Source: an uncultured Clostridia bacterium
GTDB taxonomy: Bacteria; Bacillota; Clostridia; Christensenellales; Aristaeellaceae
Assembly: GCA_945928315.1 (NCBI GenBank)
Contig: CAMENN010000010.1
Location: 1-47,052, forward strand
DNA length: 47,052 nt
Direction: 5' to 3'
Part shown: positions 4,593 through 36,990 of the stretch, piece by piece
Layout: every line of letters starts with the position of its first letter
Position numbering within the stretch: the stretch's first letter is position 1
The notes under the pieces: generated by a model
The model's input: only the letters and a program-made list of their open reading frames with translations
Database searches by the model: none
Told to the model about the DNA's origin: nothing
Translations under genes and position numbers: made by a program

Positions 4593-6104
4593 ATGAAGAA
4601 GAACCTGCTGAAGGCGCTGGCTGCGCTGATGGCCATCCTGCTGCTGGCGACGGGCTGTGCGCTGGCCGAAGCACGCGATACGCTGGTCTGGGCGATGAGC
4701 GCCGAGCCGGCCAGCCTCGATCCGATGAACACGGCGAGCATGAACACCTTCACCATCACCTACGCGCTCTATGACTGCCTGACCATCTCCGATGGCAACG
4801 GCGGCTACAAGCCCTATCTGGCTGACGAGATCACCGTCAGCGAGGACGGCCTCGTCTACACGGTGAAGCTGACCAAGGACGTGTACTTCCAGGACGGCTC
4901 CAAGCTGACCGTGGAGGACATCAAGTATTCCCTCGACCGCACCATCGCCGCGGGCTGGGCGTTTGACATGACGCTGTGCATCGACGAGGTGGCCGTGATC
5001 GACGACACCACGGTGGAAATCCGGCTCAACACGCCGTTTGGCGGCATGATGGGCAGCCTGGCCTCGCCGTTCTTCTCCATCATGAGCAAGGCCTACTGCG
5101 AGAGCGTGGGCAACGACGCGATCAAACGCCAGCCGATGGGCACCGGCGCCTACAGGCTCACCGAGTGGGCGAGCGGCGACCACATCACGCTGGAGGCGAA
5201 CGAGAACTACTTCGCCGGCGCGCCCTCTATCAAGACGATCATCTGCAAGCCGATCAGCGACAAGAACACCGGCATGATCGCGCTGCAGAACGGCGAAATC
5301 GACACCTTCATGAACGTGAACCCCACGGACATCTCCGCGGTGGAGGCGGACGAGAACCTCGTGCTCTACGCCTGCAATGCGGCAAGCGTGCTGTCCCTCA
5401 ACATGAACATCGAGGACCCGGTCCTCAGCAATGAGAAGGTGCGCCAGGCGATCTGCATGGCCATCAACAAGGACGACATCATCATCGGCGCGCTCGAGGG
5501 CCGCGGCACGCCCGCCAACAGCGCGATCCCGACGGTCTGCGCCGGCTACTCCTCCGAGACGCCCGGCACGACCTTTGACATGGCCAGGGCCAAGGAGCTC
5601 CTCGCTGAGGCCGGCTATCCCGACGGCGTGAGCCTCAAGCTCTGCCTCAAGGAGGACACCACCAACCAGAAGGTCGCGACGGTCATCCAGGCGTACCTGA
5701 GCATGATCGGCATCCAGGTGGAGATCGAGCTGATGGAGGGCGGCGCCTACACGACGGCCGTCTACGCCAACGGCGATTACCAGATGACCATCAGCTCCTG
5801 GTCCGCGATGTTCCTCGACGCGTATTCCGTCATGTACAGCCAGTTCCACAAGGACTGCTACGGCGGAACGGGCAACATCACGCACGTGGTGGACGACGAG
5901 CTCAGCGGCCTGCTGGAGGCCGCCGCGAAGGCGAGTGACGAGGACAAGGTCGCGGCCTACGACGCGGTCTGCGCGAACATCCTGGAGCACGCCTATCAGC
6001 TGCCGCTGGTCTATCAGCAGACGACGATCACCGCGACCAAAGAGCTCAAGGGCCTTGAGGCCAGCCCGCTGGGCTGCTACATGCTCAAGGACCTCAGCTT
6101 CTGA
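4593..6104 (+). CDS. Peptide ABC transporter substrate-binding protein (family 5)
   Basis: A 503-residue extracellular binding protein for di- or oligopeptides. The N-terminus is MKKNLLKALAALMAILLLATGCALA: a signal sequence that could be cut after ALA or lipidated at the Cys of ATGC. The mature part starts DTLVWAMSAEPASLDPMN, the family-5 (SBP_bac_5) opening, with VEDIKYSLDR and NEKVRQAICMAINKDDI further on. It heads an operon with two permeases, two ATPases and an aminopeptidase. A hairpin after its stop probably lets it be made in excess over the membrane parts. Nickel or other SBP_bac_5 ligands are possible, but the downstream peptidase supports peptides. Confidence 0.92.
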   Translation: MKKNLLKALAALMAILLLATGCALAEARDTLVWAMSAEPASLDPMNTASMNTFTITYALYDCLTISDGNGGYKPYLADEITVSEDGLVYTVKLTKDVYFQDGSKLTVEDIKYSLDRTIAAGWAFDMTLCIDEVAVIDDTTVEIRLNTPFGGMMGSLASPFFSIMSKAYCESVGNDAIKRQPMGTGAYRLTEWASGDHITLEANENYFAGAPSIKTIICKPISDKNTGMIALQNGEIDTFMNVNPTDISAVEADENLVLYACNAASVLSLNMNIEDPVLSNEKVRQAICMAINKDDIIIGALEGRGTPANSAIPTVCAGYSSETPGTTFDMARAKELLAEAGYPDGVSLKLCLKEDTTNQKVATVIQAYLSMIGIQVEIELMEGGAYTTAVYANGDYQMTISSWSAMFLDAYSVMYSQFHKDCYGGTGNITHVVDDELSGLLEAAAKASDEDKVAAYDAVCANILEHAYQLPLVYQQTTITATKELKGLEASPLGCYMLKDLSF

Positions 6105-6132
6105 CCGTCCGGGCACGGCGAATGGACACAGA

Positions 6133-6164
6133 GGGAGGGACAGTGTTGGCTGTCCCTTCCTTTT
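6133..6164 (+). terminator. Attenuating hairpin between binding-protein and permease genes
   Basis: GGGAGGGACAG (6133-6143) pairs with CTGTCCCTTCC (6150-6160) in an 11 bp stem with one G-U pair, then TTTT. It probably stops some transcripts and protects the 3' end of the binding-protein message; permease genes follow with no other promoter visible. Confidence 0.7.
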
Positions 6165-6197
6165 CAGGTCTGCCGGTCTCAACAAAGGGGTGTAACG

Positions 6198-7130
6198 ATG
6201 GCAAAATATGTGCTCAAACGTCTGGCGATGATGATCCTCGTCGTGCTGGGCATCTCCTTCATCGTATTTCTGATCATGAACCTGACGCCGGGCAACGCCG
6301 CGCAGATGATCCTCGGCCAGTCGGCCAACCCGGAGCAGGTGGCCAAGCTGGAGGCGGAGCTGGGGCTGGATCAGCCGTTCTTCACGCGCTACTTCAACTT
6401 CATCCTCGGCGCGCTGCGCGGCGATTTCGGCCAGTCCTATCAGACGAGGCTGCCCGTCTTTGACGAGATCCTCGCCCGCTTCCCGACGACGCTGTGCCTG
6501 GCGACGCTGGCCATGATGCTCGCCACGCTCGTCGGCGTGCCGGTCGGCGTCATCTCGGCCATCCGCCAGTACTCCATCGTCGATAACGTCTCCATGGTCA
6601 CGGCGATGCTCTTCGCCTCGCTGCCCAGCTTCGTCATGGGCCTGCTGCTCCAGCTCTCCTTCGCGCTGAACCTCAAGTGGTTCCCGGCGACCGGCGCGGA
6701 TTCGCTCCGGAGCTTCGTGCTCCCGGCGATCACGCTCTCCGCCGGCACGATGGCCACGCTCACCCGCATGACGCGCTCCACGATGCTGGAGGTCATCCGC
6801 GCGGACTATGTGCGCACGGCGCGGGCCAAGGGCGTCGGCGAGCGGCAGATCGTGCTGCGCCACTGCCTGCGCAACGCGCTGCTGCCCATCGTCACGGTCA
6901 TCGGCGTGGACTTCGGCACGGTGCTGGGCGGCTCGGTCGTCATCGAGTCCGTCTTTGCGCTGGGCGGGCTGGGCACGCTGCTCATCACCTCCATCCGCAT
7001 GAAGGACACCCCCGTCGTGATGGCCGCGGTGATGTTCATCACCGTCACCTACAGCCTGGTCAACCTGGCGGTGGACCTGATCTATGCGTTCATTGACCCG
7101 CGGGTCAAGTCGCAGTACACGAAGGGGTGA
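6198..7130 (+). CDS. Peptide ABC transporter permease (DppB type)
   Basis: A 310-residue inner-membrane subunit with six expected spans. It begins MAKYVLKRLAMMILVVLGISFIVFLIMNLTPG, the usual DppB/OppB start, and contains the ATPase-coupling loop RADYVRTARAKGVGERQIVLRHCLRNALLP (about residues 199-228; EAA-like motif). It pairs with the DppC-type permease four bases downstream to form the translocation pore. Confidence 0.93.
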   Translation: MAKYVLKRLAMMILVVLGISFIVFLIMNLTPGNAAQMILGQSANPEQVAKLEAELGLDQPFFTRYFNFILGALRGDFGQSYQTRLPVFDEILARFPTTLCLATLAMMLATLVGVPVGVISAIRQYSIVDNVSMVTAMLFASLPSFVMGLLLQLSFALNLKWFPATGADSLRSFVLPAITLSAGTMATLTRMTRSTMLEVIRADYVRTARAKGVGERQIVLRHCLRNALLPIVTVIGVDFGTVLGGSVVIESVFALGGLGTLLITSIRMKDTPVVMAAVMFITVTYSLVNLAVDLIYAFIDPRVKSQYTKG

Positions 7131-7134
7131 GACG

Positions 7135-8013
7135 ATGAGCGTGAAAGAGAATTCCGCGATCAGGAAGCGCAGCCAGCTTTCCCTGATCTGGCATCGCCTG
7201 CGCCGCAACCGGCTCGCGATGCTCGGCCTGGCGTTGATGAGCGCCATCCTGCTGCTCGCCGTGTTCGCCGACGTGATCGCCGATTACGACACGAAGGTCG
7301 TCGGCATGAATATGGCCGAGCGCCTGCAGACGCCCAGCGCAAAGCACTGGTTCGGCACGGACGGCTACGGGCGCGACGTGTTCGCCCGCATCATCCACGG
7401 CAGCCGCCTGAGCCTGTCGCTGAGCATCATCTCCATGCTGATCGCGGTGGCGGTCGGCAGCATGATCGGCGCGATCTCGGGCTACTTCGGCGGCCGCGTG
7501 GACGACGTGCTCATGCGCCTGATGGACATGCTGCTGGCGATTCCGCCGATGCTCATGTCCATCAGCATCGTCGCGGCGCTCGGGCGCAGCATGGCCAACC
7601 TGATGCTCGCGCTCGCGCTGGCCTATATGCCGGTGTTCGCGCGCGTCATCCGCTCCTCGATCCTCTCGGTCAAGGACCAGGAGTTCGTGGAGGCGGCCCG
7701 CGCGTGCGGCACGAGCGACGCGCGCATCATCCTGCGCCACATCATCCCCAACGCGGTCGGCCCGATCATCGTGCAGGCCACGCTGGCGATGGGCTCCTCC
7801 ATCCTGACGATCTCCTCGCTCAGCTTCATGGGCATGGGCATTCAGCCGCCCCAGCCCGAATGGGGCACGATGCTCTACGAGGGGCGCGACCTGATCCGGA
7901 CCAGCCCCTATCTGGTGATCTTCCCGGGCGCGGCGATCGCCGTGTCCGTACTCTCGCTGAATCTGCTTGGCGACGGCCTGCGCGACGCGCTCGATCCGCG
8001 CCTCAAGAACTGA
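7135..8013 (+). CDS. Peptide ABC transporter permease (DppC type)
   Basis: A 292-residue permease with an N-terminal cytosolic segment (SLIWHRLRRNRLAMLGLAL, typical of OppC_N), the FGTDGYGRDVFARIIHGSR motif after the first span, and the coupling loop EFVEAARACGTSDARIILRHIIPN. The ATG at 7135 follows GGGGTGAGACG; upstream in-frame codons would overlap the previous gene and add no family sequence. Confidence 0.93.
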   Translation: MSVKENSAIRKRSQLSLIWHRLRRNRLAMLGLALMSAILLLAVFADVIADYDTKVVGMNMAERLQTPSAKHWFGTDGYGRDVFARIIHGSRLSLSLSIISMLIAVAVGSMIGAISGYFGGRVDDVLMRLMDMLLAIPPMLMSISIVAALGRSMANLMLALALAYMPVFARVIRSSILSVKDQEFVEAARACGTSDARIILRHIIPNAVGPIIVQATLAMGSSILTISSLSFMGMGIQPPQPEWGTMLYEGRDLIRTSPYLVIFPGAAIAVSVLSLNLLGDGLRDALDPRLKN

Positions 8014-8025
8014 GGAGGGCGAACG

Positions 8026-8999
8026 ATGGGCAATCTGCTTGACATCCGTCATCTGACGGTCGTCTACCACACCGAGGAGGACGAGGTGCACGCGCTGAGC
8101 GACGTGTCCTTCTCGCTGCAAAAGGGCGAAACGCTCGGGCTCGTCGGCGAGACCGGCGCGGGCAAGACGACCACGGCGCTGGCCATCATGGGCCTGCTGC
8201 CCAGGCGCGTGGGCGAGGTTCAGTCCGGCGAGATCCTCTTTGAGGGCCGCGACCTGCTCCGCTGCTCGGACGCGGACATGCGCGCCATCCGCGGCGCGAG
8301 CATCTCCATGATCTTTCAGGACCCGATGACCAGCCTGAACCCCACCATCCGCATCGGCGACCAGATTGCGGAGTCCATCCGCCAGCATCAGCCGGATATG
8401 AAGCGCGCCGACGTGGAGCGCCGCGTCGATGAGATTCTGGAGATGGTGGGCATTCCGGCCGCGCGCAAGCGCGAATACCCGCATCAGTTTTCCGGCGGCA
8501 TGAAGCAGCGCGTGGTCATCGCCATCGCATTGGCGCTGGAGCCGCAGCTGCTCATCGCGGATGAGCCGACGACCGCACTGGACGTGACCATTCAGGCGCA
8601 GGTGCTCCAGATGATGGGCGATTTGCAGCGCCAGCTGGGCACCTCCACGATCCTCATCACGCACGATCTGGGCGTGGTCAGCCAGACCTGCGACCGCGTG
8701 GCCGTCATGTATGCCGGCGAGATCGTGGAGGTCGGCACGGCGGAGGACATCTTCCTGGGGAAGACGCATCACCCGTACACGACGGGCCTGTTCGGCAGCC
8801 TGCCGGACCTGAACCGCGAGACGCGCCGCCTCTCTCCGATCGACGGGCTGATGCCCGACCCGGCGGACCTGCCCAAGGGATGCCGGTTCAACCCGCGCTG
8901 CCCGCACTGCACGGCGCTGTGCCGGGAATGCGAGCCGGAGCTGACCGCCCGGGGCAGCCACGCCATTCGCTGCCACCTGATGGGGAAGGAGGAGAGGGC

Positions 9000-33609: not shown

Positions 33610-34497
33610 ATGATGCATCTGAGTCAAAAGGAAATCCTCGCGGACGGCCTGCTGCTGCTGACCGCGCTCATCTGGGGCAGCGCGTTTGCGGTCGTCAAGA
33701 ATACGCTGGACAGCTTTCCGCCCGCCGCCATCATCGCCATGCGCTACGCGATCGCCACGGTGCTGACCGGCATCGCCTTCCGCAAACACCTTCGCGGGCT
33801 GACGCGCGCGGATGTCGCCCGGGGCGCGCTGGTGGGCCTGCTGCTCAGCGCGGCTTACATCGTGCAGACGATCGGCCTGTCCTTCACCACGGCGAGCAAG
33901 AACGCCTTCCTGACCGCGGTGTATGTGATGCTGGTGCCGTTCTTCTCCATGGCGCTCTTCCGGCAGAAGCTGCGCCGGGCGAATTTCGCCGCCGCGGCGC
34001 TGATGCTGCTGGGCATCGGCCTGCTCTCGCTGGACGGGGAGAGCGGCGGGCTGAACATCGGCGACTTGCTGACGCTGATCTGCGGCGCGCTCTTCGCCGG
34101 GCACATCATCGCCGTGGAGCGCTGCCAGCGCCATACGGACGCCTATGCGCTCATCGTGCTGCAGTTCGGCTTCTGCGCGGTGTACGCGCTTGCCTATGCG
34201 CTGCTCTTCGAGCGCGGGATGGCGCTCGATTTCAACGCCGGGTCCGTCGGCGGGCTGCTCTATCTGGCGATCTTCTCCACGACCATCGCCATGAGCCTGC
34301 AGAACATCGGGCAGAGCATGGCCCCGGCGTCGCACGCCTCCATCCTGCTCTCGCTGGAGTCGGTGTTCGGCGTGGTCTTCTCGTGCCTGCTGCTGGGGGA
34401 GCGCGTGACGCCCCGGATGCTGCTGGGCTTTGCGGTGATCTTCGCCGCGCTGCTGGTCAGCGAGCTGACGCCGCACGAAAAGGCAAAGACGGCCTGA
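33610..34497 (+). CDS. EamA-family (DMT superfamily) transporter
   Basis: A 295-residue membrane protein of ten expected spans made of two EamA repeats. The first repeat begins GLLLLTALIWGSAFAVVK and the second DLLTLICGALFAGHIIAVER. The end LLSLESVFGVVFSCLLLGERVTPRMLLG is the classic EamA closing motif. The family exports amino acids and other metabolites; the substrate cannot be told. ATG 33610 or 33613 after GGGGGTTGTACGTCC. It is followed by a strong terminator. Confidence 0.9.
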   Translation: MMHLSQKEILADGLLLLTALIWGSAFAVVKNTLDSFPPAAIIAMRYAIATVLTGIAFRKHLRGLTRADVARGALVGLLLSAAYIVQTIGLSFTTASKNAFLTAVYVMLVPFFSMALFRQKLRRANFAAAALMLLGIGLLSLDGESGGLNIGDLLTLICGALFAGHIIAVERCQRHTDAYALIVLQFGFCAVYALAYALLFERGMALDFNAGSVGGLLYLAIFSTTIAMSLQNIGQSMAPASHASILLSLESVFGVVFSCLLLGERVTPRMLLGFAVIFAALLVSELTPHEKAKTA

Positions 34498-34693: not shown

Positions 34694-34726
34694 CATACCG
34701 ATCACCTATGAAAGGAGAGAAATCAC

Positions 34727-36229
34727 ATGGGCAATGAAATGAGCAGAAGAAACTTCCTGCGCGCGACGGCCGGCGTGGCCGGCGCTGTGGCGCTGGGCAT
34801 GGCGGGCACCGCCGTGGCGGAGGAGGAGGAAAAGCGCCCGGAGTTTGAGGGCAAGAGCAAGTTCGCGGGCGTGCGCAATGTGCGCTACGTCACCGACGAC
34901 CTCGTCTATCTTGGAGCGAGCGACAGGCGCCTGGCGCTGTTTGAGAATGTCTATCCGATCCCGCGCGGCGTATCCTACAACTCCTACCTGCTGCTGGACG
35001 AGAAGACCGTGCTCTTTGACACGGTGGACCGCTCCGTCTCCGGCCAGTTCTTTGAGAACCTCGAGTATGCGCTGGACGGCCGCAAGCTCGATTACTTCAT
35101 CATCAACCACATGGAGCCGGACCACTGCTCCGCCATTACCGAGGTGCTCACGCGCTATCCGGACGTGATTCTCCTCTACTCGAAGACGGCGGAGCCGATG
35201 CTGCGCCAGTTCTTCAGCTTCGATCCGACGGTCTACGGCCACGGCGTGACCGAGGGCATGGACCTGGTCACCGGCCGCCACAAGCTGGTGTTCCTCATGG
35301 CGCCGATGGTCCACTGGCCGGAGGTCATGATGACCTACGACGCGACGGACAAGCTCCTCTTCTCCGCCGACGCGTTCGGCACGTTCGGCGCGCTGGACGG
35401 CAACCTCTTCGCCGACGAGCTGCCCTTTGAAAAGGACTGGCTCGACGACGCCCGCCGCTACTACTGCAACATCGTGGGCAAGTACGGCCCGCAGGTGCAG
35501 GCAGTGCTCGCGAAGGCCGCGACGGTGGAGATCGCCACGATCTGCCCGCTGCACGGCCCGATCTGGCGCGAGAACCTCGGCTGGATTATTGACAAGTACG
35601 ACAAGTGGAGCAGCTACACGCCGGAGGACCCGCAGGGCGTGATGGTCGTCTACGGCTCCGTCTACGGCGGCACGGAGAGCGCGGCGAACGTGGTTGCCTC
35701 CCGCCTGTCCGAGGGCGGCGTGGCGAACGTGCGCGTCTACGACGTCTCCCGCACGCACGTCAGCGAGCTGATCGCCGAGGCGTTCCGGTGCAGCCACATC
35801 GTCTTCGCCTCCATGACCTACAACATGGACGTGTTCACGCCGATGAAGAACTTCATCACCGATCTGGCGGCGCACAACCTGCAGAACCGCAAATACGCGC
35901 TGATCGAGAACGGCAGCTGGTCGCCTGTGGCGGGCAGCAGGATGAAGGAGAAGCTCGACGCGATGAGCGGCATGGAGCAGGTGGGCCAGACGGTCACGAT
36001 CCTCTCCGCGCCTAACGACGAGACCTACGCGGCGCTCTCCGCGCTGGCGGACGCGGTGCTCGCCTCGCTCAGCGGCAAGGAGGAGGCCCCGGTGGAGGCG
36101 GCCCCGGCTGCGGCGACGAAGTGGGTCTGCACGGTCTGTGGCTACATCTACGAGGGCGACACGGTGCCGGAGGACTACAAGTGCCCGGTCTGCGGCGTCG
36201 GCCCGGAGAAGTTTGCGAAGAAGGAATAA
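34727..36229 (+). CDS. Flavodiiron protein with C-terminal rubredoxin and N-terminal Tat-like signal
   Basis: A 500-residue multi-domain oxidoreductase; the family reduces O2 to water or NO to N2O. Domains in order are a twin-arginine-like signal (SRRNFL at 6-11, hydrophobic run, AVA before Glu32), a metallo-lactamase-like diiron domain (about 50-295), a flavodoxin (about 304-445; FMN loop YGSVYGGTES), an Ala/Pro/Glu linker, and rubredoxin (about 466-500; Cys468, Cys471, Cys486, Cys489). The diiron ligands His128, Glu130, Asp132, His133, His196, Asp215 and His276 are all present. A fused rubredoxin supplies electrons directly, as in flavorubredoxin. The signal is odd because flavodiiron proteins are normally cytosolic. 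Single-gene transcript. Confidence 0.93.
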   Translation: MGNEMSRRNFLRATAGVAGAVALGMAGTAVAEEEEKRPEFEGKSKFAGVRNVRYVTDDLVYLGASDRRLALFENVYPIPRGVSYNSYLLLDEKTVLFDTVDRSVSGQFFENLEYALDGRKLDYFIINHMEPDHCSAITEVLTRYPDVILLYSKTAEPMLRQFFSFDPTVYGHGVTEGMDLVTGRHKLVFLMAPMVHWPEVMMTYDATDKLLFSADAFGTFGALDGNLFADELPFEKDWLDDARRYYCNIVGKYGPQVQAVLAKAATVEIATICPLHGPIWRENLGWIIDKYDKWSSYTPEDPQGVMVVYGSVYGGTESAANVVASRLSEGGVANVRVYDVSRTHVSELIAEAFRCSHIVFASMTYNMDVFTPMKNFITDLAAHNLQNRKYALIENGSWSPVAGSRMKEKLDAMSGMEQVGQTVTILSAPNDETYAALSALADAVLASLSGKEEAPVEAAPAAATKWVCTVCGYIYEGDTVPEDYKCPVCGVGPEKFAKKE

Positions 36230-36277: not shown

Positions 36278-36308
36278 CAGGGCGGCCCGGTGAAAACGGG
36301 CCGCCCTG
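36278..36308. terminator. Bidirectional terminator between convergent genes
   Basis: CAGGGCGGCCCG (36278-36289) pairs perfectly with CGGGCCGCCCTG (36297-36308) over a 7-base loop. On the plus side TTTTTT follows after a short gap (36317-36322); the minus side has TTATTCTG. Confidence 0.78.
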
Positions 36309-36309
36309 C

Positions 36310-36990
36310 TTATGCATTTTTTGATGATCCGATCTCGCGGCGCATGGCGCAATAGCCGATGACGACCGTACCCACATAAGCCAGCGTCTTGGGAATCATC
36401 AGTATACCGATGAGCGGGATGCTGTCGGCAAAGAGCACGACAGGAATATAGAATGCAAAGCTCAGGATGATGGTCAGCGCCATGAAGCGGAAGTCCCGGT
36501 CATGGTGCTCCCGGACACTGCGTGAAAAGAGAAGGATGATCAGCAGTCCCATGAGCGCAAATGGAATATTGCGAAGAATGCCCCAGAAAAGTGGCTGATA
36601 GGCGCTGAGCCAGTCGTTTTGCGGGCAGAGGCACAGTGCGATGCGCGCGGTGGCCAGCAGATAGACAAGGCACGTCAGACCATGGCGGTTGCGCGCATTG
36701 TATCGAAGCTGCCAAACATGATAAAGCAGCACATAGAACACGGTCATGGTCAGCGAAGTGATCAGCTTTCCGATTCCCAGCGCTACCGTGTAGCTGTCAA
36801 GGCACGTTGTGCACAGGGCCACGGCACGGGGAATCAGATGGAACGAGTCGCCCGCACCGAGCACGACGGCCATTGCACCGAAGAGACGGTATTGCCGGTT
36901 TCCTCCGCAGCGGCGGAGCATGAGTACGCCGACGGAGATCACAAAAATCAGGCAAGCTGCGTCGAACACGGTTTCAACAATTGCCTGCAT
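36310..36990 (-). CDS. Orphan multi-pass membrane protein, TetR-associated
   Basis: A 226-residue protein that I do not recognise. About seven hydrophobic spans can be drawn (roughly 8-25, 36-54, 70-92, 104-121, 133-154, 168-186 and 192-213). It has several cysteines in the second and third loops (LCTTCLDSY; LCLCPQNDW) and a short basic C-tail. Codon use is less GC-rich than in neighbours. A copy of the tetR palindrome lies 37-55 bp upstream of its ATG, and the TetR gene precedes it on the same strand, so it is the likely regulated target. Export of or sensing for a toxic compound is possible but unproven. Confidence 0.72.
   Translation of the reverse strand: MQAIVETVFDAACLIFVISVGVLMLRRCGGNRQYRLFGAMAVVLGAGDSFHLIPRAVALCTTCLDSYTVALGIGKLITSLTMTVFYVLLYHVWQLRYNARNRHGLTCLVYLLATARIALCLCPQNDWLSAYQPLFWGILRNIPFALMGLLIILLFSRSVREHHDRDFRFMALTIILSFAFYIPVVLFADSIPLIGILMIPKTLAYVGTVVIGYCAMRREIGSSKNA

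Follow-up and report, generated by a model that had tools for sequence, protein, structure and literature searches.

Flavodiiron proteins (FDPs) are among the important defences of anaerobes against O2 and NO, and they have been described as soluble cytoplasmic proteins that often end an NADH-rubredoxin chain. The accessible text of PMC6033852 terms them 'soluble enzymes, cytoplasmatic', states that they function as head-to-tail dimers, and names a hydrogenosomal FDP of Trichomonas in its reference list. In the scheme published there, class D consists of the FDP core followed by a short-spaced rubredoxin. The protein reported here has the same domain order and the same type of rubredoxin as the class D FDPs, and differs from them in an additional twin-arginine (Tat) signal some 31 residues long. 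FDPs with such a leader are called Tat-FDPs below.

The class B enzyme NorV of E. coli has the FDP core and the C-terminal rubredoxin in common with this protein, and the best match in the PDB is 7r1j, an anaerobic nitric oxide reductase flavorubredoxin (E 4e-52). In contrast to NorV, the protein has a rubredoxin of the short type, a Tat leader, and low scores with the NCBIfam flavorubredoxin models. CD1623 of Clostridioides difficile, a class F enzyme, is similar in its FDP core, its seven diiron ligands, its short-spaced rubredoxin and its clostridial origin. However, CD1623 bears its own NADH:rubredoxin reductase domain, whereas the protein studied here has no reductase domain and has a Tat leader. 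The preference of CD1623 is for O2, according to the accessible text of PMC6033852.

FDPs outside cells are not unheard of. The A-type flavoprotein of Giardia is reported outside cells with a supernatant/pellet ratio of 2.0 in assemblage B, as given in the accessible text of PMC5887430. Unlike the protein described here, it is protozoan and not a Tat protein, a signal peptide was not predicted, and the ratio was 0.18 in assemblage A (PMC5887430). Any claim of novelty is therefore limited to prokaryotes and to a dedicated signal. Searches of the open-access literature that combined flavodiiron with twin-arginine, extracytosolic, signal peptide or periplasmic found no exported prokaryotic FDP in the accessible texts. 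This agrees with the first-pass annotation of this DNA, which knew of no well-described exported FDP, and the protein would be, so far as the literature was searched, the first prokaryotic FDP with a dedicated export signal. A known enzyme family joined to a conserved export signal presents a new problem of electron supply. In the accessible text of Meheust et al. (2021, PMC8238504), a multi-flavinylated RnfG is proposed to open an additional route from Rnf to extracytosolic acceptors. The flavin-transfer equipment described there is also found in the genome studied here (ApbE, an RnfG with repeated FMN_bind domains, and reductases that combine FMN_bind with FAD domains). The main text of PMC8238504 mentions neither flavodiiron nor rubredoxin nor oxygen, and an exported FDP as terminal enzyme is proposed here.

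Domain architecture and class of the protein

The FDP gene is located in a 47,052-nucleotide stretch of DNA, referred to as the window, from a genome of 2.94 Mb that is 93% complete in 189 contigs; the organism is most likely a clostridial anaerobe. The features of the gene and its surroundings are listed in Table 1. The gene appears to stand alone, with an EamA transporter gene upstream (33610-34497, a gap of 229 bases) and the next likely gene downstream (36310-36990) on the opposite strand. No long T run follows the inverted repeat behind the gene. The downstream minus-strand gene encodes a hydrophobic protein of 226 aa for which no Pfam or NCBIfam match was found at E <= 0.001.

Table 1. 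Coordinates of the Tat-FDP gene and associated features in the window.
Feature	Position	Strand	Remarks
Tat-signal class D flavodiiron protein (FDP) ORF	34727..36229	+	500 aa, ATG start, stop codon included
Ribosome-binding site AAAGGAG	34711..34717	+	9 bases 5' of ATG; read in sequence
Twin-arginine signal peptide, residues 1-31, AVA at end	34727..34819	+	PF10518; cleavage site inferred
Twin-arginine codons R7 R8	34745..34750	+	RRxF[LI][KR] in 26/26 distinct Tat-FDPs read
Signal-to-core linker, residues 32-51, starts EEEE, holds F40 x G42 K43 x K45 F46	34820..34879	+	
Metallo-beta-lactamase-like diiron domain, approximate ends	34880..35626	+	ligands H128 E130 D132 H133 H196 D215 H276
Flavodoxin domain (FMN site), residues 307-430	35645..36016	+	PF00258
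Short-spaced rubrerythrin-type rubredoxin, residues 466-496, C468 C471 C486 C489	36122..36214	+	PF21349
Inverted repeat GGGCGGCCCG-N7-CGGGCCGCCC, 3' of FDP gene, terminator-like	36280..36306	+	read in sequence

The Pfam matches of the protein, all above cut-off, were TAT_signal at residues 4-24 (27.9 bits against a cut-off of 22.7), the ODP/metallo-beta-lactamase domain (PF19583) at residues 82-277, and Flavodoxin_1 and RUBY_RBDX at the residues given in Table 1. The seven diiron ligands are intact, and both these ligands and the four rubredoxin cysteines, which have the spacing C-x2-C-x14-C-x2-C, are invariant in seven aligned Tat-FDPs. The first-pass annotation had read the gene as a fusion of a diiron core, flavodoxin and rubredoxin behind a Tat signal, and each of these parts was recovered, the N-terminus with the TAT_signal score given above. 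The rubredoxin that it named is present, but it is of the short rubrerythrin type and not of the classical type, whose model PF00301 remained below threshold (20.4 against 23 bits).

The order of a metallo-beta-lactamase-like domain followed by a flavodoxin domain (PF19583, PF00258), together with the alignment to FDPs of the PDB, places the protein in the FDP family, and the spacing of its diiron ligands is near that of CD1623. The PDB search returned 24 distinct sequences at E <= 0.001, which comprised 17 FDP-type sequences, with flavorubredoxin on top, and seven rubredoxins. An identity as a class B flavorubredoxin (NorV) was rejected on the basis of the PF00301 score and of the NCBIfam scores for PRK11921 (218 against 635 bits) and PRK05452 (206 against 711 bits). 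With PF21349 above cut-off, an open reading frame that stops after the rubredoxin, and no reductase domain, the protein is, as judged from its sequence, a class D FDP.

The twin-arginine leader

The leader reads MGNEMSRRNFLRATAGVAGAVALGMAGTAVA-EEEE, with the arginine pair at residues 7-8, no charged residue from position 13 to 31, and AVA at positions 29-31. The features of a Tat substrate are present, namely the RR motif, a moderately hydrophobic h-region and an AxA motif. Across the seven aligned Tat-FDPs the leader varies at 24 of its 31 positions, but R7, R8 and F10 never change. The linker positions F40, G42, K43, K45 and F46 are also invariant among these seven, and F40 is changed in L007.

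A chance control was performed using a simple Tat-leader rule, for which the first 50 residues of the protein itself were shuffled 200,000 times, and none of the shuffled leaders passed. The same rule was applied, at every Met within the first 120 residues, to the 119 stop-to-stop stretches of the window that are at least 150 aa long, and the FDP was the only one to pass. These results exclude a chance motif. A lipoprotein anchor was excluded by the absence of a cysteine or lipobox in residues 1-60. A wrong start codon or an upstream artefact was also rejected, because a good ribosome-binding site precedes the ATG and all but one of the 26 members of the clade described below have the leader. 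Export of the window FDP is well supported by the sequence, and since the export tag is conserved, the enzyme probably works outside the membrane.

Relatives with and without the leader

The FDP query matched 59 of 60 related genomes, and many of these matches were cytosolic FDPs or short rubredoxin matches. A wider search for relatives contributed 80 further loci, the best 80 of 591 confirmed. From both sets 110 FDP rows were read, of which 95 have no Tat leader and 15 have one (eight from the 60-genome set, the window's included, and seven from the best 80 of 591). Among the 110 rows, L022 lacks an anchor motif and was classified by eye, and L116 repeats L016. The cytosolic relatives begin about 50 residues later than the Tat-FDPs. 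One relative with an FDP core and a C-terminal rubredoxin (L063) has no leader, unlike the window FDP, and two non-Tat rows (L020, L129) contain a stray RRxF with no hydrophobic run behind it.

The family search covered 308 genomes; 93 gave a match at E <= 1e-125, and in 19 the match spanned essentially the full length (residue 1-3 to 497-500). It added 20 new loci, 11 of them with the leader, and one of these (L185) is the same as L050. The distinct Tat-FDPs total 26, with L170 included, and all contain RRxF[LI][KR], a count that is partly circular because the leader was first called by a looser, similar pattern; the tree described below is not circular. The leader-bearing clade members are 63-73% identical to the window protein.

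In the phylum search six of 398 genomes matched at E <= 1e-145, and the match of the window's own genome was the only one to reach residue 1. In the order search 70 of 396 genomes matched at E <= 1e-140, and only the window's own genome and G334 have matches that start at residue 1-3. These two thresholds exclude weaker relatives, and Tat-FDPs elsewhere are only partly covered. Two other matches of the order search begin at residue 24 (G364, in whose sequence the leader is absent) and at residue 34 (G207). The match in G334 runs from residue 3 to 449 and represents a Tat-signal FDP without a rubredoxin domain from another genus of the family (L170:1295-2665, G334:C40). The rubredoxin is thus not required in every exported form.

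Quick trees with SH-aLRT support only were built on the core alone, from about residue 51, so that the leader and the rubredoxin are outside the tree data. In the first tree, which contained 108 of the 110 rows (L116 and L022 were dropped), the 15 Tat-FDPs and L011 formed one clade with an SH-aLRT of 99. The second tree contained 117 rows, that is, 130 minus L116, L022, the duplicate L185 and ten of the 13 distant cytosolic rows, with L170 left out. Here 25 class D Tat-FDPs and the leaderless L011 formed one clade, again with an SH-aLRT of 99. L011 (G024:C181; also L137) nests beside the window gene on a long branch, with a support of 95 in the first tree and 92 in the second. It is 72% identical to the window gene, and its open frame has no RR leader and ends ahead of the rubredoxin. 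L011 is most simply explained by a secondary loss of leader and rubredoxin, and is probably a natural return to the cytosol. Another member, L054, is broken off by the contig end ahead of the rubredoxin. The placement of L170 is unsure because of its long branch; it joins the other Tat-FDPs as one clade at a support of 73, which does not resolve a single origin of all leader-bearing FDPs.

The first-pass annotation had depended on the RR motif being kept by relatives and on the true start not lying downstream, and both are borne out by the 25 leader-bearing members of the 26 in this core-defined clade, with L011 as the exception. Since the clade was defined by the core only, its single exception has lost both parts, and a distant relative also bears the leader, the leader is an old and maintained trait.

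Tat machinery and other Tat clients

The Tat genes for which export would call, and which the first-pass annotation had named as a check, were found in the window's genome. TatC has two matches, one of which adjoins two TatA/B genes, so that the genome holds a tatB-tatA-tatC operon and a second tatC elsewhere. TatC was present in 14 of 16 Tat-FDP genomes compared with 14 of 28 comparison genomes (Fisher p = 0.013). It was not found in the Tat-FDP genomes G013 and G826, possibly as a result of incomplete assembly. Within the genus, TatC occurred in seven of eight Tat-FDP carriers and in 12 of 21 non-carriers (p = 0.14). The counts of TatC, and of FMN_bind below, are for the 16 Tat-FDP genomes known before the family search, which added ten more (G881 is a repeat of the genome of L050).

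The Tat-signal model PF10518 had 17 matches in the window's genome at E <= 0.1, and the FDP scored best. A leader of the form (S/N)RRxF(L/I/M)(K/R) was readable in 15 of the 16 others, and no leader was found in the sixteenth (L049). The sequences of these 15 proteins end for the most part at about 520 aa, at the locus end, and within them Pfam found FAD_binding_2 in 11, five of which also have FMN_bind. The remaining four are a protein of the old-yellow-enzyme type (L037), a protein with a metallo-beta-lactamase fold (L036), a protein with a fumarate-reductase C-terminal domain (L048), and L047, which has no family match and is broken by the contig end. L037 (L037:1-1563, minus strand, G000:C55) combines Oxidored_FMN with a dinucleotide-binding domain. 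In L036 (L036:1504-2478, G000:C33) a flavodoxin domain was not found.

Flavin and Rnf equipment

The window's genome, the only one in which ApbE and Rnf were profiled genome-wide, has 30 FMN_bind matches, one ApbE match and one NQR2/RnfD/RnfE match. Beside rnfD and rnfC lies a gene, broken by the contig start, for an RnfG that spans 788 residues or more and carries a tandem array of at least seven FMN_bind repeats (L178:1-2364, minus strand, G000:C25). This RnfG is predicted to be a polyflavin subunit of Rnf.

FMN_bind matches numbered 7-34 in the 29 genomes of the genus, the window's own included. Among 31 genomes outside the genus there were 0-5 in 29, with 17 in G030 and 21 in G034. The Tat-FDP genomes beyond the genus set had 5, 9, 7, 16, 10, 14 and 9 matches (those of L050-L054, L097 and L120), and G334 had 23. 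Three comparison genomes had 1, 1 and 10, the last being Tissierella (G833), in which the matched FDP is leaderless. All 16 Tat-FDP genomes examined therefore have at least five FMN_bind matches. Within the genus, carriers and non-carriers showed no significant difference in the number of FMN_bind matches (p = 0.15), and the idea that Tat-FDP carriers are distinctive among the genomes of the genus was rejected for both TatC and FMN_bind. Because these within-genus differences are not significant, the wider association with TatC and FMN_bind may be due to shared ancestry.

The neighbourhoods of 15 Tat-FDP loci and of the leaderless L137 were compared, several of the loci being short or ending close to the gene, and no neighbour gene was conserved across these 16. 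Shared neighbours were seen only in the trio L133/L135/L136 and the pair L052/L120, and a few other ORFs match across the neighbourhoods at mostly 25-45% identity. A donor gene next door to the FDP was rejected on this basis, and the genome context names no donor. In terms of the membrane donor to rubredoxin that the first-pass annotation had suggested, a plausible identity is offered by Rnf and flavinylated extracytosolic proteins, but in the compared loci no linkage of the FDP gene to a donor was found.

Linkage of tat with flavin genes was found in some Tat-FDP genomes. In the genome of L097, two TatA/B genes and tatC are directly followed by an FMN_bind and rnf cluster, all on one strand over about 9.5 kb (L181:2042-11499, G830:C3). 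After tatC come a 685-aa protein with four FMN_bind stretches, a small FMN_bind protein, rnfC, an ORF that joins RnfD and FMN_bind, two Rnf-Nqr membrane subunits and an rnfB-type gene. In the genome of L054 (G829), TatA/B, TatA, TatC and an FMN_bind gene are consecutive, apbE and a Hpre_diP_synt_I gene lie within about 3 kb, and rnf genes were not seen in the 6 kb examined. Among the Tat-FDP genomes beyond the genus set, tat is thus linked to rnf in one (G830) and to FMN_bind in two (G830, G829), while the FDP itself is unlinked. No FMN_bind match lies on either of the two tatC contigs of the window's own genome, and in G825, G827, G828, G831 and G334 tat and FMN_bind are on different contigs or at least about 19 kb apart.

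Discussion

We consider it reasonably probable that the window gene encodes a Tat-exported class D FDP that draws on an Rnf/flavin network for electrons to reduce O2, or NO, outside the membrane. The FDP would fold in the cytosol with its two irons, FMN and the rubredoxin iron, TatABC would move it folded across the membrane, and the signal would probably be cut after AVA (residue 31). Electrons from ferredoxin or NADH would enter Rnf and pass by way of the multi-FMN RnfG or the small FMN_bind proteins to the rubredoxin domain, and from there through FMN to the diiron site, where O2 would be reduced to water (or NO to N2O). In this manner O2 or NO may be cleared ahead of its entry into the cell, and the FDP would drain reducing power from a wire shared with the exported fumarate-reductase-like flavoproteins. 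O2 is weakly favoured over NO as the substrate, given the preference for O2 of the class F enzyme from a clostridial species in the account available from PMC6033852. A point against this reading is that FDPs form head-to-tail dimers, so that Tat must carry the dimer or the dimer must form outside.

Export may occur as proposed with a different donor, which may be some other extracytosolic carrier, a small reducing compound, or a reductant supplied by the host or community. The lack of a donor gene linked to the FDP in the compared loci and the presence of L170, which bears the leader without a rubredoxin, would suit such a donor. We regard it as rather unlikely, however, as FMN_bind proteins are present in 16 of the 16 Tat-FDP genomes examined.

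A leader that is Tat-like but does not export would leave the protein in the cytosol or at the inner face of the membrane as an ordinary class D FDP. This is quite improbable for a leader that scores above the Pfam cut-off, is the best of 17 in the genome, is found in 25 of 26 clade members with 63-73% identity to the window protein, and keeps R7, R8 and F10 invariant while 24 of 31 leader positions vary. Some RR leaders do not work, which counts in favour of a cytosolic protein, as does the fact that TatC was not found in two Tat-FDP genomes (G013, G826). The description of FDPs as cytoplasmic in the accessible text of PMC6033852 points in the same direction. It is highly improbable that the exported protein has another task, such as peroxide reduction or, within anaerobic respiration, the use of its diiron-flavin core for a different extracytosolic substrate. 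The FMN domain and each of the seven diiron ligands are preserved, and the solved structures nearest to the protein bear the names of NO and O2 reductases. In favour of another task, 11 of the 15 other readable Tat clients have FAD_binding_2, as in fumarate-reductase-type enzymes.

If the exported FDP supplied by Rnf and flavins is the correct reading, it may be one part of a larger extracytosolic flavin-wired chain, in which Rnf passes electrons to the polyflavin RnfG and on to Tat-exported reductases, with the flavodiiron O2/NO reductase as a side branch. We propose this larger chain tentatively and would put its chances somewhat short of even. An exported lineage would place the FDP defence on the outer face of the membrane, where a new electron route would be needed. 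Extracytosolic flavin networks would gain a definite terminal enzyme, and Rnf would deliver electrons to O2 with neither heme nor quinone involved, which is relevant to how strict anaerobes cope with the oxygen that reaches them. The predictions of TatC dependence and of reduction by flavinylated RnfG are directly testable.

A second FDP is encoded in the same genome (locus L138, G000:C30). It is 43% identical to the window protein and has no leader, and less than 1 kb separates it from an FMN_bind ORF whose product seems to have an export signal (5046-6218, minus strand, and 6975-8081, plus strand).
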